From Desulfallas thermosapovorans DSM 6562 (GTDB lineage Bacteria; Bacillota; Desulfotomaculia; Desulfotomaculales; Desulfallaceae), in NCBI RefSeq assembly GCF_008124625.1, contig NZ_VNHM01000013.1:1-64000 (forward strand): a stretch of 64,000 bases of DNA, given 5' to 3'. Below are positions 10,032 through 33,049 of the stretch, one piece after another (position 1 is the stretch's first letter; every line of letters starts with the position of its first letter). A program made the position numbers and the translations under genes. The notes under the pieces were generated by a model, which was not told the DNA's origin, made no database searches, and saw only the letters and a list, made by a program, of their open reading frames with translations.

Positions 10032-10085
10032 CTTCCATTCCTCCTCGTTTAATAAAATTGCTCCCGGAATTTTCCGGTTTGGAGG

Positions 10086-10720: not shown

Positions 10721-10825
10721 ATGTGCTCCGAGTTTTTCTGCCTAAAGCGGATTGGCCATGGCAGTTAAGCCGTTGGGTAAAATCGGAAACGAGTTTGCCT
10801 CCCGTGGTTGGAAAGGGGCTTGTTA
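10721..10825 (+). promoter_or_regulatory. Molybdenum/tungsten cofactor (Moco/Tuco) riboswitch candidate
   Basis: The segment shares the ordered blocks of the second candidate at 18901: CTCCGAG, TAAAGCG followed by GATT, GGAAAC, GCCTCCC and GGAAAGG. Helices: GCTCC (10725-10729) with GGGGC (10815-10819), and CTGCC (10738-10742) with GGCAG (10760-10764). The block between the inner helix and GGAAAC is not clearly base-paired here, which would suit the variant proposed to sense tungsten cofactor. A terminator follows at 10908 and a formate dehydrogenase gene after that. Recognised by pattern, not by a covariance search. Confidence 0.7.
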
Positions 10826-10907
10826 AATCAGGTAGAGAATCTTTTAGGTGCATACTTTGCGCCGTGTTTTAGTGCCTGATAAATAATTTTGAGATTAACG
10901 CAAAAAG

Positions 10908-10933
10908 TCTCCGGCCATGGCTGGAGATTTTTT
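10908..10933 (+). terminator. Riboswitch-controlled terminator before fdhA
   Basis: TCTCCGGC (10908-10915) pairs with GCTGGAGA (10920-10927) around loop CATG, with one G-U pair, then six T. It lies between the riboswitch candidate and the gene, so it is the likely off-switch. Confidence 0.75.
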
Positions 10934-11038
10934 GTGTTTCCGGGTCACTTTTGTTCCAGTAACGGCGGCAGGTTCACCGGTTGCTGTGGCAAGGCAACAG
11001 ACTGCGGAGCCATTAGACTAATGAAAAGGAGTGGTTGG

Positions 11039-16897: not shown

Positions 16898-16914
16898 TGT
16901 TGTATCACCGTAAA

Positions 16915-17586: not shown

Positions 17587-17587
17587 A

Positions 17588-18382: not shown

Positions 18383-18900
18383 TGCATAACCCCCTTCGTA
18401 ATTTTACAGCAATGTTATTGGTTGGTTGACAAGTATTTTTCCAGGCGCAACAAGACATAACAACTGACAAATTGACTTGTTTGTAGCATTGTTGGGCGCA
18501 GTCTTTGAATGCGTTCAAGGTGGTATTGCGAAACACAACGTAACAAAACATATCATAACGTAACTATGCTGGTAATAATAAGGCACTTGTGATTAGTTTG
18601 TCAAGATATTTTTGTAATGTTTTGAACAGTGACGATATCCGTCTAAGATTTGTAATAAATGGGTGTTCCGATTTGGTTAGCCAGGAGAAAGTGGCGTGTC
18701 GTTTCGATACAATAGTGCCAAAATGGATCTATTGGCCGGCCGGGTATAATGCGGAATTCAAACATGTTGAGAATTGTTTGTCGAGCAAGAAAATATATGG
18801 CGGGCAATAGGGGAACGTGTCCTGAGCCTGGTTGTATTGTTTATTTGGCATGGGTCTTGCATATTACTATACACAGACTAACAACCAACAACAATATGAT
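18383..18900. other. Spacer between modA and the second riboswitch
   Basis: No credible gene; the one open frame (18589-18810, plus) lacks a ribosome site. Upstream of modA the octamer AACGTAAC occurs twice (18537-18544 and 18557-18564), exactly 20 bp apart, about two helical turns, as expected for a regulator binding one face of DNA. Which regulator is unknown. Confidence 0.4.
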
Positions 18901-19003
18901 AACTGCTCCGAGCCAGGTATGTCTAAAGCGATTGCTATGATGGCCTGGCCGGCAGGGTTCGCTGGGAAACCGGCGGGCCTCCCAGTGCGGAAAGGAGTAC
19001 AGT
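18901..19003 (+). promoter_or_regulatory. Molybdenum cofactor (Moco) riboswitch
   Basis: Matches what I know of the MOCO RNA motif: an outer helix ACTG-CTCC (18902-18909) with GGAG-TA-CAGT (18994-19003), an inner helix GCCAGG (18912-18917) with CCTGGC (18944-18949), loop block TAAAGCGATT, then GGGAAACCGGCGGG, GCCTCCC and GCGGAAAGGAG. A terminator follows at once and the downstream genes are a molybdopterin-binding protein and a molybdenum hydroxylase. Confidence 0.82.
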
Positions 19004-19024
19004 AATATACTTTTGGTCTATCAA

Positions 19025-19064
19025 AGGCCGGGGTGCTGTATCTTTACCGCATTCCGGTCTTTTT
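19025..19064 (+). terminator. Terminator of the Moco riboswitch
   Basis: A 12-bp stem with three G-U pairs (19025-19036 with 19049-19060, core CCGGGGTGC / GCATTCCGG) ends in a T run (to 19064). It lies 22 nt after the aptamer and 82 bp before the gene, as for an OFF switch acting by early termination. Confidence 0.75.
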
Positions 19065-19146
19065 GTTTGCGTTTGGGGAATATTTCATGGACAGCTTGTG
19101 AAATATATCCTATTCTGTTTGCGTTTTGGCGAAGGGGGAGAAAACT

Positions 19147-20172
19147 GTGAAAGCGGTTCCGGTACAGGAGGCAGTGGGGATGGTGCTTTGCCATGACCTT
19201 ACCGAAATTGTGCCCGGCAAGGTTAAAAAGCCGTTATTTAAAAAGGGCCATGTGGTGAAGCCCGAGGATATTCCCAGGTTGCTGGACATTGGTAAAGAGC
19301 ATCTTTATGTGTGGGAAATGCGCGAAGGGATACTGCACGAAAATGAGGCGGCGCAGCGCATGGCCGCGGCGGCCGCCGGTGAAGGAGTTTATTTAACGGA
19401 GCCCAGTGAGGGCAAAGTTAGCCTGGTGGCCGCCATGGATGGGCTGCTGAAGATTAATTCCAGTGCCCTTTCTTTGGTTAATGAACAGGAACAGGTCATG
19501 TTTGCCACCTTGCACTCCAACCAGCTTGTTAAAAAGGACCGGGTGGTGGCCGGTACACGCATTATCCCGCTGGTAATTGATGAAAAAATCATCACCGGCG
19601 TGGAGCACATATGCCGGGATTCCTTTCCCTTAGTGGAGGTAAAGCCGTTAAAAGCTATGCGGGTTGGTCTGGTTACCACCGGCAGCGAGGTGTACAGCGG
19701 GCGTATCCAGGATAAGTTTGGTCCCGTGGTGACAGCTAAACTGGCCCAGTGGGGCAGTGAAGTTACCAGGCAGATTCTGGTGTCCGACAGTATAGATATG
19801 ATTGTGACTGCCATTAATGAGTTAATCCGAGAGGGGGTAGATATGATCCTGGTAACCGGCGGGATGTCGGTGGACCCCGATGATGTAACGCCCGCGGGGG
19901 TGGTTGCCGCCGGGGGGCGCATAATCAGTTACGGTGCACCCGCTCTACCGGGGGCCATGTTCATGATGGCTTATATCGGCGAATTACCGGTAATGGGCCT
20001 TCCCGGGTGTGTTATGTATCATAGAAGCAGTATTTTTGATTTAATAGCACCGCGGGTTCTGGCAGGGGAAAAAATCTCGCGCCGGGATATTGCCGTTCTG
20101 GGTTATGGCGGGCTGTGTTCCAACTGCAGCCAGTGCCGTTTCCCCGACTGCAGTTTTGGCAAAAGCATTTAA
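19147..20172 (+). CDS. Molybdopterin-binding (Mog/MoeA-like) protein with Cys-rich tail, aldehyde oxidoreductase copy
   Basis: A 341-residue paralogue of the gene at 13730, sharing VPVQEAVGMVLCHDLTEIVPG, TTGSEVYSGRIQDKF, VTGGMSVDPDDVTPAG, GAPALPGAMFMMAY and the tail CSNCSQCRFPDCSFGK. Start GTG 19147 follows GGGGGAG at 19134-19140; a TTG at 19126 precedes that site. It is the first gene after the Moco riboswitch and 63 bp upstream of the aldehyde oxidoreductase, so each of the two molybdenum enzymes here has its own copy. That suggests enzyme-specific cofactor handling. Confidence 0.86.
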   Translation: MKAVPVQEAVGMVLCHDLTEIVPGKVKKPLFKKGHVVKPEDIPRLLDIGKEHLYVWEMREGILHENEAAQRMAAAAAGEGVYLTEPSEGKVSLVAAMDGLLKINSSALSLVNEQEQVMFATLHSNQLVKKDRVVAGTRIIPLVIDEKIITGVEHICRDSFPLVEVKPLKAMRVGLVTTGSEVYSGRIQDKFGPVVTAKLAQWGSEVTRQILVSDSIDMIVTAINELIREGVDMILVTGGMSVDPDDVTPAGVVAAGGRIISYGAPALPGAMFMMAYIGELPVMGLPGCVMYHRSSIFDLIAPRVLAGEKISRRDIAVLGYGGLCSNCSQCRFPDCSFGKSI

Positions 20173-20235
20173 TGCGACGCCGGCAATGTATTTGGCCGGT
20201 TTAGCGCAAGACTATTAAAATAGGAGGTTAAGTTA

Positions 20236-23013
20236 ATGATTAAGAAAAAGCTTAACATCAACGGTGCCAGCATGTCGCTGGTTGTTGACCCGGAAGCCCT
20301 TCTGGTGGATGTTATCCGGGGACAGCTGCACCTTACCGGTACCAAGGTGGGCTGCGGCAAGGGCCAGTGCGGCGCCTGTTCGGTGATTATGAACGGCAAA
20401 GTTATCCGTTCCTGTATCACCAAAATGAAAAGGGTACCCGATGAGTCCATTATCACCACCATTGAGGGCATTGGCACCCCCACCAATCTCCATGCTCTCC
20501 AACTGGCCTGGGTCAAGCACGGTAGCGCCCAGTGCGGTTTTTGCGCCCCCGGCTTTATAGTTTCCGCCAAGGCGCTGCTGGACGAGAATAACAATCCCAC
20601 CAGGGAAGAGGTGCGGGACTGGTTCCAGAAGCATAAGAACGTTTGCCGCTGCACGGGGTACAAGCCCCTGGTGGATGCCGTGATGGATGCCGCCCGCCTG
20701 GTGCGCGGTGAAATTACCGCAGCCGACCTGGAGTTTCAAATGCCGGAAGATGGTAAAATCCTGGGCACCGATTACCCGCGTCCCTCGGCGATTGGTAAAG
20801 TTACCGGTACCATTGATTACGGCGCTGACTTTGGCCTGAAAATGCCTCCGGGCACTTTACGGCTCAAGCTGGTTCAGGCCCAGGTTTCCCACGCCAAGAT
20901 TTTATCCATAGACACCTCCGAAGCGGAAAAAATGCCCGGTGTTTATAAAGTGGTTACCTATAAAGATGTCAAGGGCAAAAACCGTATCAACGGCCTTAAC
21001 CTCCCCGGCAATAAGGGGGACAGCTACGACCGTCCCATACTGTGCGATGAAAAGGTATTCCAGTTTGGCGACGCCATTGCCATTGTTTGTGCCGATACCG
21101 AAGCCCACGCCCAGGCCGCGGTGGAAAAGGTCCATGTGGAGCTGGAAGTGCTGCCGGCTTACATGAGTGCCCCTGCCGCCATGGAGCCCGATGCCATTGA
21201 AATTCACCCCGGTACTCCCAACGTTTATTTCAGGCAGTACAACATCAAGGGTGAGGATACCGCTCCCCTGATGGAAAAGGCGGACGTGGTGGTATCCATG
21301 GAAGACCTGTATGTTGGTCGCCAGCCCCACCTGCCCATTGAGCCCGACGTTGCCGCCGCTTATTATGACGAAAACGGCAACCTGCAAATCCTGTCCAAGA
21401 GTATCGGTCTGGACCTCCACGCCGCTATGATAGCTGAAGGCCTGGGCCTGGAGGCCGGTAAAAACCTGTTCCTGTCCCAGTTCCCCGGTGTGGGCGGCAC
21501 CTTCGGTTACAAGTTCAGCCCCACCATTGAAGCGCTGGTGGGAGTGGCAACCATGGCCACCGGTAAACCCTGCTTCCTGAACTTTGATTATTACCAGCAA
21601 ATTATTTACACCGGCAAGCGGTCGCCCTTCTTTGTGGACATTAAATTTGGCGCCAATAAGGATGGCAAGATTAATGCCATGGAATACAACTATGCTGTTG
21701 ACCACGGCCCGTACTCCGAGTTTGGTGACCTGCTTACCGTGCGGGGAGTCCAGTTCATCGGCGCCGGTTACGGTATACCCAACATCAGGGGGGTTGGTTA
21801 CACGGTTTGCACCAACCATGCCTGGGGCTCCGCCTTCAGGGCTTACGGTTCACCCCAAAGCCTGTTTGCCTCCGAGACCCTGATGGATGTGCTGGCTGAA
21901 AAACTGGGCATGGATCCGCTGGAGCTGCGTTATATTAACGCCTATCGTCCCGGCGATACCAACCCCTCCGGTCACGAGCCCGAGGTATATTCGATGGTTC
22001 CGTTGCTTGACGCCATCCGGCCCAAGTACCAGGAAGCCCTGAAGAGGGCCAAGGAAGAATCCACCCCCGAGAAAAAACGTGGTGTCGGTATATCCGTCGG
22101 TGTTTACGGCTGCGGCCTGGACGGCCCGGACAGTGCCGAAGTGTGGGTGGAACTGCTGCACGACGGCAGAGTCCAGGTGAGCACCAACTGGCAGGACCAC
22201 GGCCAGGGGGCTGACATGGGATTGCTGGCCACTGCCCATGAAACACTGCGGCAAATGGGTATTACGCCCGATCAAATCAAGCTGGTCATGAACGATATGA
22301 ACCTGGCTCCGGCCGGTGGCCCGGCTGGCGGCAGCCGTTCCCAGGTGGTTGTGGGCAACAGTGTGGTAAACGGCTGCGAGCAGCTGGTGAACGCCCTGCG
22401 CAAAGATGATGGCACCTTCATGACCTACGACGAAGCGGTAGCCAAAGGCATCCCCACCAAGTATGTGGGCAAGTGGAGTGCAGCCGCCGCCAACTGCACC
22501 GACTGCGATGATAAAGGACAGGGCAAACCCTTCTCGGTCTACATGTACGGTGTATTTTTGGCCGAAGTGGAAGTGGACACCACCACCGGCAAGACCCGGG
22601 TGGTGAAAATGACCATGGCCGCCGACGTGGGTGAAGTTATCAACAAGACAGTTCTGGACGGGCAAATTTACGGCGGTTTGGCCCAGGGTATCGGCCTGGC
22701 CCTGAGCGAGGACTTCGAAGACCTCAAGAAGCATACCACCATGGCCAACTGCGGTATTCCTTACATCAAGGATATCCCGGACGACATGGAAATTATCTAT
22801 GTGAACTACAAGCGCGAGCACGGCCCGTACGGTGCTGCCGGGGTGGGTGAACTGCCCCTGACCTCCCCCCATGCCGCCATTTGCAATGCCATTTACAACG
22901 CTTGCGGCGTGCGGATCACCCAGTTACCGGCCCGGCCCGAGAAAGTGCTGGCCGGCTTGCAGGGTAAAGAAATTCCCGTGGTTAAGCGGCCCATTAAAGA
23001 CCCGGCTTATTAA
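20236..23013 (+). CDS. Mop-type aldehyde oxidoreductase (xanthine oxidase family), single chain
   Basis: A 925-residue molybdenum hydroxylase, close in length and plan to Desulfovibrio gigas aldehyde oxidoreductase (907). N-terminal plant-type [2Fe-2S] domain: GCGKGQCGACSV. Second helical [2Fe-2S] domain: CGFCAPGF and CRCTGYKPLV. The molybdopterin domains follow, with the active-site Glu in GVGELPLTS near residue 872. There is no FAD domain, so electrons leave through the Fe-S clusters. The start ATG 20236 follows TAGGAGG. The substrate could be aldehydes or an N-heterocycle. The neighbouring cluster argues for the Desulfovibrio aldehyde-oxidising type. Confidence 0.92.
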   Translation: MIKKKLNINGASMSLVVDPEALLVDVIRGQLHLTGTKVGCGKGQCGACSVIMNGKVIRSCITKMKRVPDESIITTIEGIGTPTNLHALQLAWVKHGSAQCGFCAPGFIVSAKALLDENNNPTREEVRDWFQKHKNVCRCTGYKPLVDAVMDAARLVRGEITAADLEFQMPEDGKILGTDYPRPSAIGKVTGTIDYGADFGLKMPPGTLRLKLVQAQVSHAKILSIDTSEAEKMPGVYKVVTYKDVKGKNRINGLNLPGNKGDSYDRPILCDEKVFQFGDAIAIVCADTEAHAQAAVEKVHVELEVLPAYMSAPAAMEPDAIEIHPGTPNVYFRQYNIKGEDTAPLMEKADVVVSMEDLYVGRQPHLPIEPDVAAAYYDENGNLQILSKSIGLDLHAAMIAEGLGLEAGKNLFLSQFPGVGGTFGYKFSPTIEALVGVATMATGKPCFLNFDYYQQIIYTGKRSPFFVDIKFGANKDGKINAMEYNYAVDHGPYSEFGDLLTVRGVQFIGAGYGIPNIRGVGYTVCTNHAWGSAFRAYGSPQSLFASETLMDVLAEKLGMDPLELRYINAYRPGDTNPSGHEPEVYSMVPLLDAIRPKYQEALKRAKEESTPEKKRGVGISVGVYGCGLDGPDSAEVWVELLHDGRVQVSTNWQDHGQGADMGLLATAHETLRQMGITPDQIKLVMNDMNLAPAGGPAGGSRSQVVVGNSVVNGCEQLVNALRKDDGTFMTYDEAVAKGIPTKYVGKWSAAAANCTDCDDKGQGKPFSVYMYGVFLAEVEVDTTTGKTRVVKMTMAADVGEVINKTVLDGQIYGGLAQGIGLALSEDFEDLKKHTTMANCGIPYIKDIPDDMEIIYVNYKREHGPYGAAGVGELPLTSPHAAICNAIYNACGVRITQLPARPEKVLAGLQGKEIPVVKRPIKDPAY

Positions 23014-23082
23014 TGGAGCGAACTGCGGTAAAAATGGCCAAGGCATTACTAAACCAACTTGTATCCTGGTGATGTTCCAAAA

Positions 23083-23108
23083 TGCAGGCGGGCATAAGCC
23101 CGCCTGCA
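23083..23108. terminator. Perfect 11-bp hairpin after the aldehyde oxidoreductase
   Basis: TGCAGGCGGGC (23083-23093), loop ATAA, GCCCGCCTGCA (23098-23108). The T run is delayed (AATATTTTT after 6 bp). It may partly terminate or protect the upstream mRNA so that the enzyme is made in excess over the maturation genes that follow. Confidence 0.6.
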
Positions 23109-23230
23109 CCAGGAATATTTTTCACAATCTATACCCCTTCACTTATAGATTCACCTAAGGCGAATTGGAAAATAATTGTTCCAGTTTGTTTTAGGCTTCT
23201 TATGTTTATACCGGAAATGGTGGGATAATA

Positions 23231-25552
23231 ATGGATCAGAAACGAATAGTGGAATTTGAACAAAAATGTACCCAGGAACTTCCCCCGGCCTGTGTAACGG
23301 CCTGTCCCGTGCATATGGATGCCAGGGGGTTCGTGGCGGAAGTGAAGGCCGGTAATTTTGACCGGGCCTGGCAAATTTACAGAAAAAGCGTTAATTTTGC
23401 CGGAATTGTCGGACGAATTTGTGATCACCCCTGCCAGGCCGCCTGCAAGCGGCAGGAAGCAGGGGAAGCCATCGCCATAGGTGCCCTGGAAAGTGCATGC
23501 GCCCGGATGAACCTGGCGCCGGGGGGCAAGGTTATCCAGGCGGCTAAAAAGGATAAACGGGTGGCGGTGGTGGGCGCGGGGCTGAGCGGTTTGGGAGCAG
23601 CCTTTGATTTGGCCCGGAAGGGTTACGGTGTGACGGTTTTTGAGGCCACGGACCGTTTGGGCGGCCGGCTGTGGGAGTTTCCGGCGGAGGTTTTACCGCG
23701 GCGGGTCATAGAGGAAGAAACCGCCGTATTGCATGAAATGGGTGTTGATTTCAGGTTCAACACGGTGGTGGGACAGGCTGTTTCCCTGGCGGAATTATGC
23801 CGGCAGTTTGACGCTGTTTGCTTGGCTACGGGAAAGATACCCGAAAATATTCCGGGTCTGCCAGTGGAACAGGGAAAACTGGTGGTTGACCCGGTTTCCC
23901 TGGCCACCGGTCTGGATGGAGTCTTTGCCGGGGGCAGCATATTGCGCGGTACAGAGTATTCCCCCATTAATTCCCTTTCCGAGGGCGGGCGGGCCGCCAC
24001 ATCCATTGATCGCTACTTGCAGCAAGTTTCCCTCACTGCCGTCCGGGAAAACGAAGGACCTTACCAGACCCGGCTTTTTACCAGTACCAAGGGGGTTGAA
24101 CCCCTTCCCGCCGTTGTGCCGGCCGATCCCGCGCAGGGCTATACCCGGGAGGAAGCTATCAGGGAAGCCGGGCGCTGTCTTTTGTGCCAGTGCCTGGAGT
24201 GTGTAAAGGTTTGTCCTTATCTGGAACACTTTAAAGGCTACCCCAAAAAATATGTCCGGCAGATCAGCCATAACCTGAAAATGAAACTGGGGAACCATGA
24301 AGCCAATATTTTAATTAATTCCTGCAGCCTGTGCGGCCTCTGCCAGGAAGTCTGTCCCCAGGGTTTCAATATGGCCGACCTGTGCCTGGAAGCCCGGACC
24401 GAGATGGTCCAAAAGGGGAAAATGCCGCCTTCCGCCCATGATTTTCCCCTCCGGGACATGGAATTCAGCAACAGCGAACTGTTTGCGCTGGCCCGCCACC
24501 AGCCGGGGTATGAAACCAGCAGCTATGTGTTTTTCCCGGGCTGCCAGCTGTGCGCCTCGGCCCCGGACCACGTGGAGAAAGCATATGATTATTTAATGGA
24601 TAAACTGGCCGGTGGGGTAGGCCTGATGCTGCGCTGCTGCGGCGCCCCGGCCCAGTGGAGCGGGCGGGCCGAGCTGTTTAATGCGGAGCTTGAAGATATT
24701 AAAGGACAGTGGCAGCAAATGGGCAGCCCAAAGCTGATCCTGGCCTGCTCCACCTGCTACCAGATGTTTAAGCAGTACCTGCCCGGGGTGGATATTGTAT
24801 CCCTTTGGGAATTGTTTGACCAGCTGGGTTTGCCCGAAATGGATGTACAGCGGCAGCCGGGAGTGGTGGCTGTACATGACCCCTGCACCACCAGGCACGA
24901 AAAACATATTCACACCAGTGTTCGCAATATATTGCAGAAACTGGGCATTAATATTGAGGAATTGCCCACCACCGGTGAAACCACCGAGTGCTGTGGTTAT
25001 GGTGGTCTGATGTGGTTTGCCAACCGGAATGTGGCCAGGGATACGATAAAACGGCGCATTGGTGAAAGCCCTGCCGATTATGTGGCCTATTGTGCCATGT
25101 GCCGGGATAATTTTGCCGCCGGGGGCAAGAAAACCTATCACTTGCTTGATTTTATTTACGGTGAAGCGGACGCAGCTTCGCCCTTGACCCGCGGGCCCGG
25201 CTACTCACAGCGGCGGGAAAACAGGGCCAGGCTTAAAAGTAAATTGCTCAAAAATGTTTGGGGGGATAATGTGGCGAAACCGGAAAACTCGTATGAAGCA
25301 ATCAAGCTGGTTATTCCCGGCCAGGTAAGCGAAATTATGGATGAACGTCTTATCTTGAAGGAAGATATACAAAAGGTGATTGAACATGCCGAGAAAACAG
25401 GCAAAAAGATATTTAACCGCAACAGCGGCCATATTTTAGCCTGTTTCAGGCCGGTAAGCGTTACCTACTGGGTGGAATACACCCGGCAGGGGGATGATTT
25501 TTACGTTCACAACGTTTATTCGCACCGGATGGAAGTGGCGGGTAACAGTTGA
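23231..25552 (+). CDS. Flavin and iron-sulfur oxidoreductase: GltD-like plus heterodisulfide-reductase-like domains
   Basis: A 773-residue fusion. Residues 1-90 are the Cys-rich GltD/DPD N-terminal domain (CVTACPVHMDARGF, ICDHPCQAACKR). About 110-300 is an FAD domain opening with VAVVGAGLSGLGAAFDL. Then come ferredoxin-type clusters (CLLCQCLECVKVCPY, CSLCGLCQEVCPQGFN) and two CCG-like Cys regions as in HdrD/GlpC (GCQLCASAP with RCCGAP, then HDPCTTRH with ECCGYGG). The last 130 residues hold a small extra domain. It corresponds to the iron-sulfur protein beside mop in Desulfovibrio vulgaris (DVU1558, from memory). It is probably the electron partner of the aldehyde oxidoreductase; the true acceptor is unknown. 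Confidence 0.82.
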   Translation: MDQKRIVEFEQKCTQELPPACVTACPVHMDARGFVAEVKAGNFDRAWQIYRKSVNFAGIVGRICDHPCQAACKRQEAGEAIAIGALESACARMNLAPGGKVIQAAKKDKRVAVVGAGLSGLGAAFDLARKGYGVTVFEATDRLGGRLWEFPAEVLPRRVIEEETAVLHEMGVDFRFNTVVGQAVSLAELCRQFDAVCLATGKIPENIPGLPVEQGKLVVDPVSLATGLDGVFAGGSILRGTEYSPINSLSEGGRAATSIDRYLQQVSLTAVRENEGPYQTRLFTSTKGVEPLPAVVPADPAQGYTREEAIREAGRCLLCQCLECVKVCPYLEHFKGYPKKYVRQISHNLKMKLGNHEANILINSCSLCGLCQEVCPQGFNMADLCLEARTEMVQKGKMPPSAHDFPLRDMEFSNSELFALARHQPGYETSSYVFFPGCQLCASAPDHVEKAYDYLMDKLAGGVGLMLRCCGAPAQWSGRAELFNAELEDIKGQWQQMGSPKLILACSTCYQMFKQYLPGVDIVSLWELFDQLGLPEMDVQRQPGVVAVHDPCTTRHEKHIHTSVRNILQKLGINIEELPTTGETTECCGYGGLMWFANRNVARDTIKRRIGESPADYVAYCAMCRDNFAAGGKKTYHLLDFIYGEADAASPLTRGPGYSQRRENRARLKSKLLKNVWGDNVAKPENSYEAIKLVIPGQVSEIMDERLILKEDIQKVIEHAEKTGKKIFNRNSGHILACFRPVSVTYWVEYTRQGDDFYVHNVYSHRMEVAGNS

Positions 25553-25634
25553 TGAAGGGGAACTAATGATCAGGGGATATACCCCTTTACGGGAGCGCCC
25601 CAGTATATAAATATCCCGATAAGGATGTGAAATA

Positions 25635-25844
25635 GTGGCCGAAAAGGAAGTCCAGGCGGAATCTATATATGAATGTCTCAAATGTAACTTGCCCATGACG
25701 CCGGGCAAGGTTACCGTGTCCTATATGGGCAGTAGCTTTCCGGTGGAACTGTTGAAATGCCCCGGGTGCGGGCTGGTCTTGATTACCGAGGATTTGGCCC
25801 TGGGCAAGATGCTGGAAGTGGAAAAGACCCTGGAAGACAAGTAG
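25635..25844 (+). CDS. Small zinc-ribbon/redox protein, DVU_1557-like
   Basis: A 69-residue protein with two CxxC pairs (YECLKCNLP and LKCPGCGLVLI), as in rubredoxin-like or zinc-ribbon folds. GTG start at 25635 behind AAGGAT. Size, cysteines and neighbours match the family NCBI calls DVU_1557 redox protein, which always accompanies Mop-like enzymes (from memory). Metal content and function are unproven. Confidence 0.75.
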   Translation: MAEKEVQAESIYECLKCNLPMTPGKVTVSYMGSSFPVELLKCPGCGLVLITEDLALGKMLEVEKTLEDK

Positions 25845-25856
25845 GGAGTGAAGGTG

Positions 25857-26600
25857 ATGGAATCCGCTGTATCATGTCCCATGTACGAAGGAAAGCCCAT
25901 CCGGGATGTAACCGGGGATACCATCCGGCCGGGCGGGTTTACCTTGACGGACCGGGCACTTGCTTTATGCTCCTTTGCTGCCGGGGCCAGAGTGTTGGAC
26001 GTTGGCTGCGGTGCCGGTGCCACGGTGGAATACTTGATAAACAACCACCAACTGGATGCTGTGGGGGTGGATCCCTCCCCGGCGCTGCTGGAGCAGGGGC
26101 GCCGGAGGTGCCCCGGCCTGCCCCTTATGGAGGGGGCCGGGGAAAACTTGCCCTTCAGGGACGGCGAAATGGATGGTGTACTGGCGGAATGTACCCTGAG
26201 TGTAATGGAAAACCCGGACCGGGCTTTGGCCGAGTGCTGCCGGGTGCTAAAAAGCGGCGGCTGGCTGGTGGTGACCGATGTCTATGCCCGTAACCCGGCG
26301 GGGGTGAGCACACTGCACGAATTACCCCTGGAGGGATGTCTTAAGGGTGCCATGTCCATTGATGAGCTACTACAAAAGATCAAAGCCCGGGGCTTTGAGG
26401 TGGTTTTGTGGGAAGACCATACCAGGCTGCTGGGTGAGCTGGTGGCCGGTCTGATCCTGGCCCATGGTTCCATGGCTGCATTCTGGGGCTGTGTGACAGG
26501 TGATTCCGTTGCCTGCGGGGATATTCAGAATGCGGTGCGTAAGGCCCGGCCGGGTTATGTTTTGGTCCTGGCCAAAAAGGTGGCAACCGGTAAGGAGTGA
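25857..26600 (+). CDS. SAM-dependent methyltransferase, DVU_1556/TrsM-like
   Basis: A 247-residue class I methyltransferase: motif I VLDVGCGAGATVEYL, motif II VGVDPSPALLEQG, motif IV EMDGVLAECTLSVMENPD and post-motif GGWLVVTDVYARN. The N-terminus has a distinctive YEGKPIRDVTGDTIRPGGF segment. Start ATG 25857 lies 8 nt after GGGAG (25844-25848); GTG 25848 sits on that site. It is 12 bp from the zinc-ribbon gene. The substrate is unknown; location points to a role in maturing or supporting the aldehyde oxidoreductase. Confidence 0.8.
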   Translation: MESAVSCPMYEGKPIRDVTGDTIRPGGFTLTDRALALCSFAAGARVLDVGCGAGATVEYLINNHQLDAVGVDPSPALLEQGRRRCPGLPLMEGAGENLPFRDGEMDGVLAECTLSVMENPDRALAECCRVLKSGGWLVVTDVYARNPAGVSTLHELPLEGCLKGAMSIDELLQKIKARGFEVVLWEDHTRLLGELVAGLILAHGSMAAFWGCVTGDSVACGDIQNAVRKARPGYVLVLAKKVATGKE

Positions 26601-26601
26601 A

Positions 26602-27063
26602 ATGGATATGAATGATGAGATGATGCGCATGCTGGAGCTGTACCAGCAGGGGTTTAACTGCAGCCAGATACTGCTGGCCCTGGGGTTGGAGCACCGGGGT
26701 GAAGATAATCCCGGTTTGATTCGGGCCATGACGGGCCTGGGCGGCGGGCTGGGGTTTTCCGGTAAGACCTGTGGTGCCCTCACCGGTGGTGTTTGCCTGC
26801 TGAGCCTGTACGCGGGCAGGGGTGCGCCGGAGGAGAAAGAGCATGATGAGCTATTATTGATGATTGACGAGCTGGTGCAGTGGTTTGAAGGGGAAATCGG
26901 TCAGCATTACGGTGGTATAAACTGCGGGGATATTCTGGGTGACGACCTGGCGGAAAAGGTGGTTTCCCCCCAGTGCAGCAGTATTGTTATTGAAACATAC
27001 AACAAAATAAAAGAAATAATGCTTGACCACGGGATCGAACTGTCCGGTGAAAAAAATGACTGA
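26602..27063 (+). CDS. C-GCAxxG-C-C family redox protein, DVU_1555-like
   Basis: A 153-residue protein with the family pattern: GFNCSQILLALGL, then GLGGGLGFSGKTCGALTGG, and late Cys in GINCGDIL and SPQCSSI. The conserved cysteines suggest a metal or redox centre. ATG 26602 follows AAGGAG and overlaps nothing; ATG 26608 is an alternative. A longer frame from 26500 lies inside the methyltransferase and is rejected. Proteins of this family are common in selenium- and molybdenum-using anaerobes, function unknown. Confidence 0.82.
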   Translation: MDMNDEMMRMLELYQQGFNCSQILLALGLEHRGEDNPGLIRAMTGLGGGLGFSGKTCGALTGGVCLLSLYAGRGAPEEKEHDELLLMIDELVQWFEGEIGQHYGGINCGDILGDDLAEKVVSPQCSSIVIETYNKIKEIMLDHGIELSGEKND

Positions 27064-28456
27064 GGCGGGGCGTGTCCTGGCGGTGACGGAAAGTCTTTGC
27101 CCCCATTGCCTGGCTAAAATTCCCGCCCGGCGGGTGGCCCGGGGAAACCACGTTTATTTGGAAAAGGAATGTCCCGAGCACGGCAGTTTCAAGGTGGTTA
27201 TCTGGCGGGGAGAGCCCTCTTTCGAGTCCTGGTCCAGGCCGAAAATCCCTGCGGTGATTAATGTTCCCTTAACCCGGGTGGAGCGGGGATGTCCCTTTGA
27301 CTGCGGTCTCTGTCCCGACCACCGCCAGCATACCTGTACTGCGGTGTTGGAGGTGACTGGCCGCTGCAACCTGCACTGTTCATTTTGTTTTGCCGGTTCC
27401 GGTGGTGGTGCTGCTCGGGATCCCGACCCCGGGGTGATCAGGGGCTGGTACCGTACCCTGCTGGACGCTGGTGGACCCTATAACATCCAGCTCTCCGGCG
27501 GTGAACCCACCATGCGTGACGACCTGCCCGGTTTGGTGTCCATGGGCCGGGATATGGGGTTTAGCTTTATCCAGCTGAACACCAACGGCCTGCGGCTCAG
27601 CCGGGAGCCGCGGTTTTTTGAAGAATTGCAGCGGGCTGGCCTGGCCTCTTTATTTCTGCAATTTGACGGAACGGAAAGCGAGATATACAGAAAGCTGAGG
27701 GGCCGTGATTTACTGGCGGACAAGCTGGAGACAATCCGGCTGTGCGGGGAACTGGGCATCGGTGTTATCCTGGTGCCCACCGTGGTGCCGGGGGTCAATG
27801 ACCATAATATCGGGGATATTATTGACCTGGCCCTGGAACATTTACCGGTGGTGCGGGGGGTGCACTTCCAACCCGTGAGCTATTTTGGCCGCTATCCCCA
27901 GCCGCCCTCCGATGACATGCGCATTACCCTGCCCGAGGTTATCAGCAATATTGCCCGGCAGACCGGGGGACGGATCAAGGTGGAAAATTTCCGGCCGCCG
28001 GGCTGTGAAAACGCCCTGTGCTCCTTCCACGGAAATTTTATTTTAATGCCCGGCGGGACTTTGATGCCCACCACCCGGCATGAAACAAACCAGAACACAA
28101 GTTGCTGCTGTACGCCCGAATTGGCGGTGGAGGGGTCCAGGAAATCCAGGAAGTTTGTGGCGAACCACTGGTCGGCCAGCCGGCCCGTCCCTGTTCAAAA
28201 GTCATGCAGTTGCGGCGGCGGTGGCATGGAGGAGTTTATACGAACCGATAGCATGGATCTTTTCCTGGCCAGGGCCAAAACCCATACCCTTTGTATTTCG
28301 GGCATGGCCTTCCAGGATGTGTGGAACGTTGACCTGGAGCGGGTGAAGGACTGCTGCATCCACACGGTTTCCCCCGCCGGCAAGCTGATACCCTTTTGTG
28401 CCTATAATATTACCGATAGCCAGGGCAGATCAATTTACAGGGGGCGTGCCGATTGA
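27056..28456 (+). CDS. Radical SAM protein, TrsS-like with Tes-type N-terminus
   Basis: A 466-residue radical SAM enzyme. The N-terminal Cys module (LCPHCLAKIPAR, ECPEHGSF) leads into ERGCPFDCGLCPDHRQHTC, then the SAM cluster motif CNLHCSFCF and the SGGEPTMR glycine motif. The N-terminal arrangement recalls archaeal Tes/MJ0619 proteins. The C-terminal part adds many cysteines (SCCCTPE, SCSCGGGG, CCIHTV) for auxiliary clusters. ATG 27056 overlaps the previous stop by 8 nt. In related clusters this protein can contain selenocysteine (radical SAM (seleno)protein TrsS, from memory); here I see only Cys codons. Substrate unknown. Confidence 0.83.
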   Translation: MTEAGRVLAVTESLCPHCLAKIPARRVARGNHVYLEKECPEHGSFKVVIWRGEPSFESWSRPKIPAVINVPLTRVERGCPFDCGLCPDHRQHTCTAVLEVTGRCNLHCSFCFAGSGGGAARDPDPGVIRGWYRTLLDAGGPYNIQLSGGEPTMRDDLPGLVSMGRDMGFSFIQLNTNGLRLSREPRFFEELQRAGLASLFLQFDGTESEIYRKLRGRDLLADKLETIRLCGELGIGVILVPTVVPGVNDHNIGDIIDLALEHLPVVRGVHFQPVSYFGRYPQPPSDDMRITLPEVISNIARQTGGRIKVENFRPPGCENALCSFHGNFILMPGGTLMPTTRHETNQNTSCCCTPELAVEGSRKSRKFVANHWSASRPVPVQKSCSCGGGGMEEFIRTDSMDLFLARAKTHTLCISGMAFQDVWNVDLERVKDCCIHTVSPAGKLIPFCAYNITDSQGRSIYRGRAD

Positions 28457-29823
28457 TTACCAAAACACCTTTGGAACAGTGGATTTTAAATAAAATAACC
28501 GCCTCCGCCGGGTTCAGGTCTCAAGGGCATGCGGGTGGGCTGACCCGCGGCCTCATTGAAAGTTACCAGCTGGCCAAATTGAAGGAAACCGTGGCCCTGG
28601 CCCGGGGAAAAAGCCTTTTTTACCGGGCCGCCCTGGCCGGCTTTACCCCGGATAAAATAAAATCGCTGCGGGACCTGTCCGGCCTCCCCTTTACCACGGC
28701 AGAGGATATCAGGCAAAACCCGTTGCGGTTTTTGTGCTGTTCCCAGGATGATATCAAGCGGGTAGTTACCCTGGAAAGCTCGGGTACCACGGGGATGCCC
28801 AAAAGGATTTTTTTCACCGCCGCCGACCAGGAACTGACCAGGGATTATTATCATCACGGCATGACCGTGGTTAGCCGGCCCGGTGATAGGGTGATAGTGC
28901 TGCTCCCCTGTGAGCGGCCGGGCAGTGTGGGCGATCTGTTTGCGGAAAGCGTGCGGCGCATGGATGTGGTGCCCGTGCGGCATGGTATTGTAAGGGATCC
29001 CGGGTATACCCTGGAGGTAATGGCCAGGGAGCGGGTTGATACGCTGCTGGGGATACCGACCCAGGTGCTGGCCCTGGCTTGTCATGAACCACCGGGCCAG
29101 GATAAATTCGGCCTGAAGATCAAAAATGTGATCCTTAATACCGACCATCTTTCCCGGGCCATCATCCACCGTATTACAGAAAGGTGGCACTGCAGGGTTT
29201 TCAACCAGTATGCCATGACTGAAATGGGATTGGGGGGCGGCCTGGAATGCGCGGCGCTGGCGGGTTACCACATGCGGGAGGCCGATCTGCTCTTTGAGAT
29301 AATTGATCCTGTCACCGGCGCTGTGCTGCCCGACGGCCAGGAGGGGGAAATTGTCTTTACCACCTTGACCCGCAGGGGGATGCCATTAATCCGCTACCGC
29401 ACGGGAGATATGGGCAGGTTTATCCCCGGGCCGTGCCCCTGTGGTACCGTGCTGAAGCGCATGGCCCCGGTGCGGGACCGGGTCAGGGGGCGGATTCCCC
29501 TGGCCGGAGGAGGATTCCTCAGTATGGCGGTGTTGGATGATGCTTTATTTGCCACTCCAGGGGTGCTGAACTTTAAGGCCGATATTTTGCCGGGCAGCGG
29601 CACGGATTGCCTGGCTGTCAAAGTCCATTTGGCGGGCTGGGCCGGAGAAGAACTGGCGGTATTGATTCAAAAAACACTGCTTGCCGTTCCCGTGATTGCT
29701 GAAAATGTCAAACAGGGAGCTTTAACCGTGGCCCCCGTTGAAATTGACAGGTCCGGGGAACTGTGGCCGCCGGCCAAACGATTAATCCGGGATTTGCGCA
29801 ACAATGGTGACCGTCCGGCGTAA
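28453..29823 (+). CDS. AMP-forming acyl-CoA-ligase-like protein, DVU_1553-like
   Basis: A 456-residue member of the adenylating superfamily, nearest in look to phenylacetate-CoA ligases: P-loop-like LESSGTTGMPKRIFF, QYAMTEMGLGGG, and RYRTGDMGRFIPG then MAPVRDRVRGRI. TTG 28453 overlaps the stop of the radical SAM gene by 4 nt, so the two are translationally coupled. Whether it makes a CoA thioester or only an acyl-adenylate is not visible. Its constant linkage with an aldehyde oxidoreductase suggests activation of the acid product, or of a cofactor precursor. Confidence 0.82.
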   Translation: MITKTPLEQWILNKITASAGFRSQGHAGGLTRGLIESYQLAKLKETVALARGKSLFYRAALAGFTPDKIKSLRDLSGLPFTTAEDIRQNPLRFLCCSQDDIKRVVTLESSGTTGMPKRIFFTAADQELTRDYYHHGMTVVSRPGDRVIVLLPCERPGSVGDLFAESVRRMDVVPVRHGIVRDPGYTLEVMARERVDTLLGIPTQVLALACHEPPGQDKFGLKIKNVILNTDHLSRAIIHRITERWHCRVFNQYAMTEMGLGGGLECAALAGYHMREADLLFEIIDPVTGAVLPDGQEGEIVFTTLTRRGMPLIRYRTGDMGRFIPGPCPCGTVLKRMAPVRDRVRGRIPLAGGGFLSMAVLDDALFATPGVLNFKADILPGSGTDCLAVKVHLAGWAGEELAVLIQKTLLAVPVIAENVKQGALTVAPVEIDRSGELWPPAKRLIRDLRNNGDRPA

Positions 29824-29896
29824 TATTTTTGTTGGCTGCTGAATGGATAATTAACTCCGTGATAAAAAAGTACTGAATTTACGGGGGTGCGATTAT

Positions 29897-30946
29897 ATGG
29901 TTAAAATATTCAAGGATGTGCTGCAGCTACTGGAACAGGGTGAAAGTGTTGTATTGGCCACCATACTGGCCAGTTACGGCTCCACTCCGCGTACGGCGGG
30001 TTCTAAAATGATTATCCACCGGGATGGCTCAATTACCGGCACCATCGGCGGTGGTTTGGTGGAGGCAATGGTCATCAAGCAGGCCGCCCGGGTTTTGGAG
30101 GAAAGAAAGGCCCTAATCAGGGAGTTTAACTTGGACAGTAAAAGCGCCGGGCAAATGGACATGATCTGCGGTGGCCATTTAAAGGTATTGCTTGATTATT
30201 TGGACGCGGGTAATGGAAAGCTGGTGGACACATATCGTAAACTGGGAGAAGCTATGGCCGCCAGGCAAAAGGCTGTGCTGATCACCCCGGTGCCCGGGGG
30301 CGAGGCCGGGGAACCCGCCGGGCGCCAGTGCCTGGTGGTGGCGGGCTCCGCCCCTGTGGGCACATATCTTCCTCAACCGGGCGAAACAGAGCAATTGCTG
30401 AGCCTGGCTGATAGCCGTTATCCCCAGGTGGTGGCGGTGGGGGACCGCAGTTTTTTGGTGGAGCAAACGGGGGATTACGGCACCGTCTATATTTTTGGCG
30501 CCGGTCATGTGTCATTGCAGGTGGCCCGTTTGGCCAAAACGGTGGACTTTCGTACCGTTGTACTGGATGACAGGGAGGAGTTTGCCAACCGGGAGCGGTT
30601 CCCCGAGGCCGACCGGGTGGAGGTACTGCCCACTTATGATGTAGACATGGCGGAATTGGGTGTTGACGAGGATAGTTATGTGGTTATCGTAACCAGGGGC
30701 CATGCCCATGATAAAACAGTGCTGGCCCGGGCACTGCATTCTCCGGCCTGCTATATAGGTATGATCGGCAGCAAAAGCAAGCGGGATAACATCTACAGGA
30801 GGCTGGAAAGCGAGGGTTACGACAAGGCCAGGCTGGCCCAGGTATACAGTCCCATTGGTTTAGCCATCAAGGCCGAAACTCCCGAGGAAATTGCGGTGAG
30901 CATCGTGGCCGAATTGATCAAATGCAGAGCGGAGCGTATGGCATGA
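29897..30946 (+). CDS. xdhC: XdhC/CoxI-family molybdenum cofactor maturation protein
   Basis: A 349-residue protein with the XdhC_CoxI N-terminal domain (ATILASYGSTPRTAGSKMII, GTIGGGLVEAMV) and the C-terminal Rossmann domain (VYIFGAGHVSLQVARLA, VVIVTRGHAHDKTVLARAL, YIGMIGSKSKR). XdhC proteins receive Moco, help add the equatorial sulfido ligand and load xanthine-oxidase-family enzymes, which fits the Mop protein upstream. It ends with a 4-nt overlap with the next gene. Confidence 0.93.
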   Translation: MVKIFKDVLQLLEQGESVVLATILASYGSTPRTAGSKMIIHRDGSITGTIGGGLVEAMVIKQAARVLEERKALIREFNLDSKSAGQMDMICGGHLKVLLDYLDAGNGKLVDTYRKLGEAMAARQKAVLITPVPGGEAGEPAGRQCLVVAGSAPVGTYLPQPGETEQLLSLADSRYPQVVAVGDRSFLVEQTGDYGTVYIFGAGHVSLQVARLAKTVDFRTVVLDDREEFANRERFPEADRVEVLPTYDVDMAELGVDEDSYVVIVTRGHAHDKTVLARALHSPACYIGMIGSKSKRDNIYRRLESEGYDKARLAQVYSPIGLAIKAETPEEIAVSIVAELIKCRAERMA

Positions 30947-32070
30947 GTAATATAGCTGCGGTGGTGCTGGCGGCCGGTTATTCATCCCGCATGGGTGAAT
31001 TCAAGCCCCTGCTGCCCCTGGGAGAAAACACCGCTTTAGCCAGAGCGGTGCATTTATTTCAAGCTGCCGGTATAACCCGGTTGCTGGTGGTGACAGGTCA
31101 CCGGGCGGCAGATCTGCGGCCTGTGCTGGAGAAACTGGAGGTGCCCGGGGTGCATAACCCGGACTACCACCTGGGTATGTTTTCTTCGATCCGGGCCGGA
31201 GTGGCCGGCTTGCCGCCCCGAACGGAGGCTTTCTTTTTACTGCCCGTCGACCATGCCCTGGTGCGGGTGCAAACCGTTAAATCATTGCTGCGCAGGCGAC
31301 GTAAAAGTGGGGCGGATATTATATACCCCTGCTTTGCCGGGGAGCGGGGCCACCCGCCATTGATATCTGCAAAATATACCGGAGAGATACTGAGTGCTCC
31401 TGCCGGTGGTAACCTGCGGCAAATCCTTGCCCGGCACGAAGCCGAATCCCTGGATGTGGAGGTGGCCGACCGGGGTGTGGTGCTGGATATGGATACCCCA
31501 AAAGATTATCAAAATCTTTTGCAGCGGGCCGAGAACATCGATATCCCCGACCCACGGGAATGTGAAGCCATCCTGCGTATTGCCGGGACCCCCGACCGGG
31601 CGGCCGCCCATGGCCGGGCGGTGGCGGAACTGGCCGTAGCCCTGGGGGCGGAACTTAATCGGCGCGGGTATCAATTGCGGCTGGACTTGATTGAAGCAGC
31701 AGGCCGGCTGCATGATATGTGCAAAGGAAGGCCCCGGCATGCCGCGGTGGGGGCGGAACTGCTGGCTGCCATGGGTTTCCCCCGGGTAGCTGAAATTGTG
31801 GCCTGCCACATGGGGGAAGGCTTGCCCGCCGGTACCCGGATCGGGGCCAAACACCTGGTTTATTTGGCGGACAAGCTCCTGTGCGGCGACAGGCCGGTTA
31901 CCCTGGAAGAAAGATTTTGGGGTTCCATGGAACGTTTTGCCGCAGAACCTGATGTTAAGCAGGCGATACAGGAGCGCTGGCTCCGGGCGGAGTTGCTCAA
32001 GGGACAATTGGAACGGGTACTGGGTGTGCAACTTGATACATGGCTAAAGGGTTGGCGCAGGGGGGTATAG
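30943..32070 (+). CDS. Molybdopterin nucleotidyltransferase-like and HD-domain fusion, DVU_1551-like
   Basis: A 375-residue two-domain protein. Residues 1-190 are a MobA/MocA-type nucleotidyltransferase: VVLAAGYSSRMGEFKPLLPLG, LLVVTGHRA, LPVDHALV. About 200-375 is an HD-like domain: AAGRLHDMCKG, ACHMGEG and HLVYLADKLLCGD. MocA makes the cytosine dinucleotide form of Moco used by xanthine-oxidase-family enzymes, so that is a reasonable role for the first domain. The HD domain may hydrolyse a nucleotide intermediate. ATG 30943 overlaps the xdhC stop (ATGA). Confidence 0.85.
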   Translation: MSNIAAVVLAAGYSSRMGEFKPLLPLGENTALARAVHLFQAAGITRLLVVTGHRAADLRPVLEKLEVPGVHNPDYHLGMFSSIRAGVAGLPPRTEAFFLLPVDHALVRVQTVKSLLRRRRKSGADIIYPCFAGERGHPPLISAKYTGEILSAPAGGNLRQILARHEAESLDVEVADRGVVLDMDTPKDYQNLLQRAENIDIPDPRECEAILRIAGTPDRAAAHGRAVAELAVALGAELNRRGYQLRLDLIEAAGRLHDMCKGRPRHAAVGAELLAAMGFPRVAEIVACHMGEGLPAGTRIGAKHLVYLADKLLCGDRPVTLEERFWGSMERFAAEPDVKQAIQERWLRAELLKGQLERVLGVQLDTWLKGWRRGV

Positions 32071-32077
32071 GTGGCAG

Positions 32078-32692
32078 ATGAAACCGGTGGTGATTTATCT
32101 GGTACGGCACGGTGCCATTGATACCGGCCGGGAAAGGCGCTTCATCGGCCAGATTGACCTGCCGCTGTCCAGTGGCGGGGTCCGGCAGGCGGAAAAATTA
32201 AGGGACCGGCTGGCGGGTGCCAGTCTGGCCGGGATATACTGTAGTGATCTCACCCGGTCACTGGAGACAGCCCGGATAATTGCAGCGGAGCACCCGGTGC
32301 CCCTTGTGGCCGACGCGGATCTACGGGAAATATCCCTGGGGGCATGGGAAGGGCTCAGTTTTGCGGAAATAAACCGCCGTTATCCCGCGGAATTTGCCAG
32401 GCGCGGCGACGACATCGCCGGTTACGTTCCCCCGGGCGGTGAAAGTTTTGCAAGCTTTGGCCGGCGTATCATGACAGCCTTCAACCGGCTGGTGGAACAG
32501 GCCAATCGCGATATACTGATTGTGGGCCATGCCGGGGTAAACCGGGTTATTATCAGCCGGCTTTTGGGGGTGCCTTTGCATAATATTTTTTACATAGGTC
32601 AGGATTACGCCTGTTTAAACATTATTTGCCGGGAGAAGGGAAAATACAAAATAAAGTTATTAAATAGCACGGAGCATCTTCAGGCCGGTTGA
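32078..32692 (+). CDS. Histidine-phosphatase-family protein (CobC-like)
   Basis: A 204-residue phosphoglycerate-mutase-fold phosphatase: VRHGAIDTGRERRFIG carries the catalytic RHG, YCSDLTRSLETA the second Arg, and LIVGHAGVNR the late His. It resembles alpha-ribazole phosphatase, but no cobalamin genes are nearby. It begins 7 bp after the NTP-transferase gene, so it belongs to the same operon, and a nucleotide or cofactor phosphate is a likelier substrate. It is the last gene before the terminator at 32684. Confidence 0.82.
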   Translation: MKPVVIYLVRHGAIDTGRERRFIGQIDLPLSSGGVRQAEKLRDRLAGASLAGIYCSDLTRSLETARIIAAEHPVPLVADADLREISLGAWEGLSFAEINRRYPAEFARRGDDIAGYVPPGGESFASFGRRIMTAFNRLVEQANRDILIVGHAGVNRVIISRLLGVPLHNIFYIGQDYACLNIICREKGKYKIKLLNSTEHLQAG

Positions 32693-32711
32693 TAGATTAC
32701 CGGCTTTTTTT
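32684..32711 (+). terminator. Terminator of the aldehyde oxidoreductase cluster
   Basis: GCCGGT (32684-32689) pairs with ACCGGC (32699-32704), followed by seven T. It overlaps the phosphatase stop codon and closes the operon. Confidence 0.85.
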
Positions 32712-32837: not shown

Positions 32838-33049
32838 TTGCTCTTCGAACAAACTCTACAAATGTTCTCCCCGAGCTCGCTTGTGTTGATAAAATATGAA
32901 TGATATGCTATTGATAGCTATGCATGTAAATGGCGGGGCGTTTATAGTTCGTTTAATAAATTTAAAATGATGGCTAGTGTTAAACCGGCCGGTAGCCGGT
33001 ACAGGGTAGTATAATTTATAGTTTTTGGGGGTTGGCAGGGGGGATATTT

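Follow-up and report, generated by a model that had tools for sequence, protein, structure and literature searches.

Which function unites the eleven genes, one of them encoding a molybdopterin aldehyde oxidoreductase (AOR), that follow a molybdenum cofactor (Moco)/tungsten riboswitch in Desulfallas thermosapovorans DSM 6562? The window analysed here is the stretch of 64,000 nucleotides at positions 1 to 64,000 of contig NZ_VNHM01000013.1, from a genome of 2.96 Mb in 48 contigs, and the cluster spans positions 18894-32692 with every gene on the plus strand. Our tentative answer, which we put at roughly 40%, is that the PaaK-like adenosine monophosphate (AMP) ligase, the methyltransferase, the C-GCAxxG-C-C protein and the radical S-adenosylmethionine (SAM) enzyme TrsS build a chemical group on the C-terminal tail of the small zinc ribbon DVU_1557, which would act as a carrier between AOR and an HdrB-like dicluster flavoprotein.

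The riboswitch matched RF01055 with 69.3 bits (gathering score 36), and nine of the eleven proteins exceeded the curated NCBIfam cut-offs of the DVU_1551-DVU_1559/TrsS set, while the first gene had only the Pfam MoCF domain (PF00994) above cut-off. Between 25635 and 29823 the genes are separated by gaps of 3 and 1 base and then overlap; the next gap is 73 bases, and an overlap of 25 bases lies at 30922. The first-pass annotation, made from the letters alone, had described a riboswitch-led run of these families on the plus strand, with starts overlapping or nearly touching from 25635 to 29823 and from 29897 on, and had named a matching set at DVU_1551-DVU_1559 of Desulfovibrio vulgaris; the riboswitch match, the spacing and the NCBIfam family names agree with this description. 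The best starts read from the sequence are ATG 27056 for trsS and ATG 26602 for the C-GCAxxG-C-C gene, and for the first gene GTG 19147, which has GGGGGAG upstream, is a possible start instead of TTG 19126.

Relatives of TrsS were collected in one scan of genome contigs. The best 80 of 206 were kept, 46 of them from loci with complete 10-kb flanks. Those kept belong to Bacillota, Desulfobacterota-type deltaproteobacteria, Chloroflexi, Campylobacterota and a spirochaete, the nearest named relative among them being that of Desulfotomaculum copahuensis (72% over nearly the whole protein). In the full-flank loci the genes for AOR, the dicluster flavoprotein, DVU_1557, the C-GCAxxG-C-C protein and TrsS were each present in 46 of 46, and those for the methyltransferase and the ligase in 45 each; XdhC and the nucleoside triphosphate (NTP) transferase were found in 38 each, the phosphatase in 34 and the first gene in 26, indicating a core module of seven genes to which the ordinary Moco-maturation genes are optional additions. 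When all 80 loci were counted, including those cut by contig ends, the numbers were 68 for AOR, 71 for the dicluster protein, 74 for DVU_1557, 79 for the C-GCAxxG-C-C protein, 80 for TrsS, 73 for the methyltransferase, 78 for the ligase, 61 for XdhC, 58 for the NTP transferase, 46 for the phosphatase and 40 for the first gene. The gene order of the window was the commonest, with all eleven genes in that order in 18 of 81 loci.

Co-occurrence was examined in 247 genomes of one family around genome G285 (G and L numbers are our labels for genomes and loci), with thresholds of E<=1e-200 for AOR and E<=1e-60 for TrsS. This family is probably Desulfovibrionaceae, since it includes the AOR of Desulfovibrio gigas. 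AOR was detected in 169 genomes, TrsS in 169 (166 above its cut-off) and DVU_1557 in 169. Both AOR and TrsS were present in 163 genomes and both absent in 72, with six genomes having AOR only and six TrsS only (Fisher p 1.8e-47, uncorrected for relatedness). The tie was closer still for DVU_1557 and TrsS, with 166 genomes carrying both, three DVU_1557 only and three TrsS only; all three proteins were found in 162 genomes. Among the 12 genomes discordant for AOR and TrsS, AOR or its neighbours were cut at contig ends in G331, G420, G431, G483 and G411, and no AOR match was obtained in G305. G353 has two AOR copies with no dicluster, DVU_1557 or TrsS gene within the 20 kb fetched. Across 249 genomes of the window's own phylum, AOR was above cut-off in 17, TrsS in 15, DVU_1557 in 17 (by PF24292) and all three in 14; one of the three was missed in G617 and G613, where a gene is cut near a contig end, in G624 the AOR is cut and the TrsS-like match is only distant, and G748 has AOR and DVU_1557 with no TrsS. 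The genome survey and the full-flank counts rule out a chance clustering of this set, and they bear out the expectation of the first-pass annotation that the families co-occur above chance and form one functional unit with this AOR.

Within the module, DVU_1557 is most closely tied to AOR and its flavoprotein partner. The dicluster flavoprotein contains two complete HdrB-type C-Xn-CC-Xn-CxxC motifs, whose cysteines (C438, C469/470, C506 and C509; C552, C587/588, C621 and C624) were each found in 68 of 68 sequences. Genome G829 carries six DVU_1557 copies, none of them further than 7 kb from an AOR-dicluster pair (the pair in L157 being partly broken) and five of them immediately downstream of the dicluster gene. 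At two of these triads (L156 and L159), and at L164 in G801, no trsS, methyltransferase or ligase gene was found within the 20 kb fetched, and trsS is located elsewhere in the genome. This copy-by-copy pairing suggests that DVU_1557 belongs to each AOR triad much as a subunit would, and that one set of Trs enzymes can act in trans on several triads. Six genomes (L169, L170 and L172-L175) have DVU_1557 fused to the C-terminal end of the dicluster protein, LEDK being the last residues; this was the case in six of the eight long open frames examined and not in the other two. The same fusion with a terminal tail occurs in G748, from another phylum. In G475, one of the 12 genomes discordant for AOR and TrsS, the first gene, AOR and the dicluster gene are present with no DVU_1557 downstream and no TrsS match in the genome. 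Synteny, paralogue pairing and fusion thus show that AOR, the dicluster flavoprotein and DVU_1557 constitute a working triad, through which electrons would presumably pass.

The most distinctive feature of DVU_1557 is its C-terminus. The 144 matches over all fetched loci were reduced to 119 sequences distinct in their last 50 residues, and in every one of them EDK stands directly before the stop codon (116 LEDK, 2 MEDK and 1 VEDK). All 76 members from the first loci end in LEDK, and the sole VEDK copy belongs to a G829 locus in which trsS and the ligase gene are broken. Synonymous variation was present at all four tail codons (76 sequences), and the rest of the protein is variable, with a median pairwise identity of 44% and a minimum of 28% when the last four residues are left out (74 sequences). 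The entropy of the last three residues was 0 bits in DVU_1557 (76 sequences) versus 1.5-3.9 bits per position in the ten remaining families (39-82 sequences each), so that DVU_1557 alone among the eleven families of the cluster has a fixed end. The tail is kept in a divergent AOR branch (AORs of 1135-1240 bits). Its invariance, and its terminal position even in the fusions, suggest that an exact and free end is needed, and such an end is what a carrier loaded at its C-terminus should have. Two of the fusions (L173 and L174) have CxC in place of the first CxxC pair and an intact LEDK, so that the tail is more conserved there than the metal site. The MoeA/MoaB-like protein of the first gene has another partly conserved C-terminus, a Cys-rich end that closes with FGK, which was final in 14 of 39 sequences.

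TrsS matched NF045646 over its full length with 689 bits (cut-off 490) and reached 357 bits against NF045702, the profile of tetraether synthase (Tes, or GDGT-MAS), below the cut-off of 450. A sequence search related it to the Tes structure 7TOL with E 3.6e-88, and its predicted structure (mean predicted local distance difference test score, pLDDT, of 89) aligned with 7TOM at Z 46.2 over 410 residues with a root-mean-square deviation of 2.6 A, the next best match being MoaA with Z 21.8. By sequence and predicted fold, TrsS appears to be the nearest bacterial relative here of GDGT-MAS/Tes. Rubredoxin-like and cluster motifs are described for GDGT-MAS (in the cited part of PMC9433317), and the ligands expected from Tes are conserved in TrsS: the rubredoxin-like CX2CX20CX2H (C14/C17/C38/H41), the Cys3His site of the N-cluster (C78/C82/C85/H88) and the radical SAM motif CX3CX2C (C103/C107/C110). 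The labile Met near the C-cluster (M416) is also conserved, with Val in one of four divergent TrsS; for GDGT-MAS/Tes itself, a variant at this Met is described as keeping activity. Further invariant cysteines are residues 93, 321 and 432, and residues 447 and 349 are nearly invariant; Cys93, present in 83 of 83 sequences, is not found in Tes. In an unrooted tree of 26 sequences a split supported at 1.000 separated all AOR-linked TrsS, including the divergent ones, from Tes, a clade linked to dimethyl sulfoxide (DMSO) reductase-type enzymes (L138, L143 and L209) and proteins linked to Lgt. The Tes-like loci L139, L140 and L141, with Lgt, dehydrogenase and aminotransferase genes as neighbours, form a branch different from AOR-linked TrsS. 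The Tes-like radical SAM genes at L139:9767-11221 and L141:9219-10688 lie near an Lgt-type diacylglyceryl transferase gene, and would be better candidates for membrane-spanning lipid synthesis than TrsS.

A review, in the part cited, names TrsS only as a selenoprotein (PMC13188914). Selenium was considered as the key to the system and rejected: an in-frame TGA at the position of Cys316 was found in one of 83 aligned TrsS sequences, from Desulfocicer vacuolatum (L052:3218-4711), only 60 of 83 have Cys there, and the window's TrsS is one of these, even though a formate dehydrogenase of the same genome seems to contain selenocysteine. Apparent selenocysteines in the C-GCAxxG-C-C protein were artefacts, being TAA/TAG codons a little ahead of its true start.

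The profile of the DVU_1553 ligase (NF045666) covers residues 5-344 only. A truncated ligase lacking the C-terminal domain was rejected as an explanation, since the family has a median length of 444 residues and the C-terminal Lys (K442) is present in 73 of 74 sequences, suggesting a complete AMP ligase. A search of PDB sequences with the C-GCAxxG-C-C protein gave no useful match.

From these elements, namely the gene set, the invariant tail, the pairing, the fusions and the conserved metal ligands, we infer a covalent modification of the DVU_1557 tail by the Trs enzymes. The ligase would activate an acid and attach it to the tail, where the terminal Lys side chain is the simplest acceptor, by analogy with lipoate ligases; alternatively, the carboxylate of the tail itself could be what the ligase activates. 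Completion of the group would then fall to the methyltransferase, the C-GCAxxG-C-C protein and TrsS. TrsS could carry out a Tes-type step, in which hydrogen is abstracted from an unactivated C-H position, the carbon radical is captured on a sulfide of an auxiliary [4Fe-4S] cluster, and a C-C or C-S bond is subsequently formed. Once complete, the tail would serve as an arm, of redox or acyl type, able to reach the two HdrB-type sites; given the HdrB-like partner, it might speculatively be thiol/disulfide-like or otherwise redox-active. Since DVU_1557 is paired and fused instead of being consumed, the group probably stays on the protein. Mycofactocin and PQQ are peptide-derived cofactors in whose systems a small protein, a radical SAM enzyme and oxidoreductases come together, as here; release of a peptide in that manner is unlikely for DVU_1557, which is folded, paired and sometimes fused. 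A protein-bound arm serves as partner in HdrB and lipoyl-bound sHdr systems, which the dicluster protein resembles in its two complete CCG motifs, but DVU_1557 is a zinc ribbon and not a lipoyl domain. The likeness is rather with LysW, a small zinc-binding carrier whose invariant C-terminal EDWGE is described as holding intermediates covalently (PMC10433800, in part). LysW/ArgW and DVU_1557 are both small zinc proteins with an invariant C-terminus and no detectable sequence relation; DVU_1557 ends in EDK, with Lys in place of the acceptor Glu, and an AMP ligase takes the place of LysX.

Several observations weigh against this carrier reading. A TrsS-like clade lies next to DMSO-reductase-type molybdoenzymes (~728 residues) in three genomes (L138:9145-10464, L143:823-2124 and L209:5746-7110). 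These loci, of which L143 comprises only 5.4 kb, gave no match to DVU_1557, to the ligase or to the methyltransferase, and no open reading frame ending in EDK was found there. TrsS-family chemistry therefore does not depend on the tail and can be put to a different use at molybdoenzyme loci, so that Moco or the CCG protein stay alive as targets. G748 (96% complete, 310 contigs) has AOR, the dicluster protein and DVU_1557 with LEDK and no TrsS match at E<=1e-20. None of seven sub-threshold Pfam relatives (YgiT-like) of DVU_1557 has an EDK end, and the DVU_1557 profile was made from tail-bearing sequences, so that tail-less relatives may score lower. In the predicted model the tail has low confidence (mean pLDDT 51 in the last block). 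For DVU_1557, which is very short, searches of NCBIfam, Pfam and PDB sequences gave no LysW match even with E values as high as 10 allowed, and no report of a DVU_1557 modification was found in the open-access literature. The ligands proposed for the C-cluster of TrsS are assigned from conservation only, and the D. gigas AOR is described as active alone in vitro, passing electrons to flavodoxin. Our estimate goes no higher because of the DMSO-reductase-linked loci, G748 and a possible docking role of the tail. As regards the fold of DVU_1557, the best match was the MqsA zinc domain with Z 4.9 and every row was weak, so the absence of LysW from these rows excludes nothing; PDB sequences gave weak zinc-finger matches only, and a YgiT-like zinc ribbon is weakly indicated as the parent fold. 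L138 also contains genes for NrfD, a CCG protein, MoeA, MobB and a MoeA/MoaB-like protein, and the DMSO-reductase-linked clade appears to be a second molybdoenzyme-linked system of the Tes family.

The docking role just mentioned would make the EDK tail a motif whose carboxylate and side chains occupy a fixed pocket of AOR or of the dicluster protein, the Trs enzymes making something else. The one-by-one pairing and the fusions would suit a structural subunit, and the tail is predicted to end a helix (residues 52-67). Docking motifs, however, usually tolerate exchanges of D for E or K for R, yet E, D and K are constant in the 119 sequences, and the co-occurrence of DVU_1557 with TrsS (6 discordant genomes against 166) is left without explanation, so that we regard this role as rather unlikely. 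The same tie to TrsS, together with the invariant end, is left unexplained if DVU_1557 works as a redox protein without modification and what the AOR triad receives from the Trs enzymes is a diffusible small molecule, be it a cofactor, an electron carrier or the true AOR substrate. A ligase, a methyltransferase and a radical SAM enzyme do resemble a biosynthetic pathway, the Trs genes are sometimes distant from the triad within one genome, and TrsS-like enzymes also occur at loci without DVU_1557; nevertheless, a diffusible product is an unlikely explanation.

A further alternative, the main idea of the first-pass annotation, is that the set makes a special Moco or modifies a residue of AOR. 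A Moco riboswitch and Moco genes are part of the run, and at the DMSO-reductase-linked clade (as seen for L138) only Moco, the CCG protein and the MoeA/MoaB-like gene are held in common with the AOR loci. The window's AOR (NF045668, 1630 bits against a cut-off of 1100, full length, with Fer2, Fer2_2 and both Moco domains) is an orthologue of the D. gigas enzyme MOP, whose gene has the same cluster around it: the AOR of G319 matches the crystallised protein (1SIJ/1VLB) with 100% identity across 906 residues, and its cluster contains the first gene, AOR, the dicluster protein, DVU_1557, the methyltransferase, the C-GCAxxG-C-C protein, TrsS, the ligase, XdhC and the phosphatase, with no NTP transferase in the 48 kb inspected. 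The enzyme purified from D. gigas cells is described as having an ordinary pyranopterin cytidine dinucleotide, with an equatorial oxo replacing the sulfido ligand and catalysis proceeding without sulfido (PMC3877041, PMC10223205), and the cited passages mention no odd residue. As no Trs mark on Moco or AOR is reported there, attention shifts to the rest of the module; in addition, neither XdhC nor the NTP transferase belongs to the core. The first-pass annotation had proposed a special cofactor, a modified residue or a carrier, and of these the carrier gains support from the DVU_1557 tail, while a special Moco or modified AOR residue is weakened and now appears quite improbable. Least plausible, and highly improbable in our estimate, is that TrsS makes membrane-spanning lipids like Tes, the role that Zeng and co-workers proposed for Tes homologues of bacteria. 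Its similarity to Tes in sequence, structure and ligands would fit such a role, as would the Lgt genes next to other Tes-like branches, but AOR-linked TrsS forms its own group, remains below the Tes cut-off and has AOR beside it in all 46 full-flank loci.

The coordinates of the cluster are collected in the table.

Table. Features of the AOR/Trs cluster in the window, with the matches or counts that identify them.
Feature	Position	Strand	Basis
Moco/tungsten riboswitch aptamer	18894..19013	+	RF01055, 69.3 bits
MoeA/MoaB-like molybdopterin-binding protein, Cys-rich C-terminus, facultative	19126..20172	+	PF00994 (MoCF); 26/46 loci
Molybdopterin aldehyde oxidoreductase (AOR), orthologue of D. gigas MOP	20236..23013	+	NF045668; 1SIJ 1349 bits
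FAD / two [4Fe-4S] / two CCG (HdrB-type) dicluster flavoprotein	23231..25552	+	NF045663; both CCG motifs 68/68
DVU_1557 zinc ribbon, 69 aa, end -LEDK-stop, proposed carrier	25635..25844	+	NF045645
DVU_1556 family SAM methyltransferase	25848..26600	+	NF045667
DVU_1555 family C-GCAxxG-C-C redox protein	26602..27063	+	NF045669; start read from sequence
TrsS, Tes-like radical SAM enzyme	27056..28456	+	NF045646, 689 bits; 7TOM Z 46.2
DVU_1553 family PaaK-like AMP ligase, C-terminal Lys conserved	28453..29823	+	NF045666; K442 73/74
XdhC-family AOR maturation factor, facultative	29897..30946	+	NF045664; 38/46 loci
DVU_1551 family MocA-like NTP transferase fused to HD domain, facultative	30922..32070	+	NF045665; PF12804 + PF01966; 38/46 loci
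Histidine phosphatase, facultative	32078..32692	+	PF00300; 34/46 loci

Other genes of the window lie outside the cluster. A second Moco riboswitch (10714-10834) precedes a NuoG-like/formate dehydrogenase alpha gene (10714-13729), with an in-frame TGA at 12098-12100 whose context, ART-U-HAPTV, indicates that it most likely encodes a selenocysteine formate dehydrogenase. Divergent from it, on the minus strand (6134-10151), are genes for an NADH-dependent [FeFe] hydrogenase A6 and NuoF- and NuoE/HoxE-like proteins. The genes ahead of the cluster (16214-18382, minus strand) encode an ABC transporter with a type-11 solute-binding protein, which their position suggests to be of the molybdate type, and a gene for a protein with a helix-turn-helix and a periplasmic binding protein-like domain, possibly a molybdate-sensing regulator, follows it (33032-33985, plus strand). 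HsdR of a type I restriction system is encoded at 2140-5259.

The NCBIfam set to which nine of the window's proteins belong provides names only; model names such as diclust_near_Sec and XdhC_rel_AOR imply that the curators were aware of the linkage, and the tail, the pairing, the fusion and the co-loss are findings of this analysis. No paper on the function of TrsS, the ligase, the methyltransferase or DVU_1557 was found in the open-access literature, in agreement with the first-pass statement that no published chemistry accounts for the set, and DVU_1559 appears in two papers as AOR within protein tables. As a list, then, this gene set was known already; the mechanism proposed for it is new. 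The cited descriptions present the D. gigas AOR as an enzyme on its own, its putative partner being flavodoxin, and Tes/GDGT-MAS (MJ0619) shares fold and metal ligands with TrsS, which differs in its separate clade, its score below the Tes cut-off, its extra Cys93 and one selenocysteine variant at 316.

These distinctions matter for climate proxies. Bacterial Tes homologues have been counted as candidate makers of branched glycerol dialkyl glycerol tetraethers (brGDGTs) with a homology criterion of E<1e-50 (PMC8941075, in the part cited), which TrsS is similar enough to pass, and the GDGT-MAS paper mentions bacterial homologues in organisms without known production of these lipids (PMC9433317); AOR-linked TrsS should not be read as lipid genes. 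In a wider version of the carrier reading, which we hold with less confidence than the carrier itself and consider doubtful, DVU_1557 would be the apo-form of a protein-bound cofactor belonging to a new class. The AMP ligase, the methyltransferase and the Tes-type radical SAM enzyme would build its arm on -EDK, and in anaerobes such as sulfate reducers and acetogens this arm would convey electrons or acyl groups from a molybdenum hydroxylase to HdrB-type clusters or back. If the carrier reading is true, the role of one large branch of bacterial Tes homologues becomes testable in Desulfovibrio vulgaris, and a textbook AOR, with a structure available since 1995, has an unrecognised partner protein bearing a new kind of prosthetic group.

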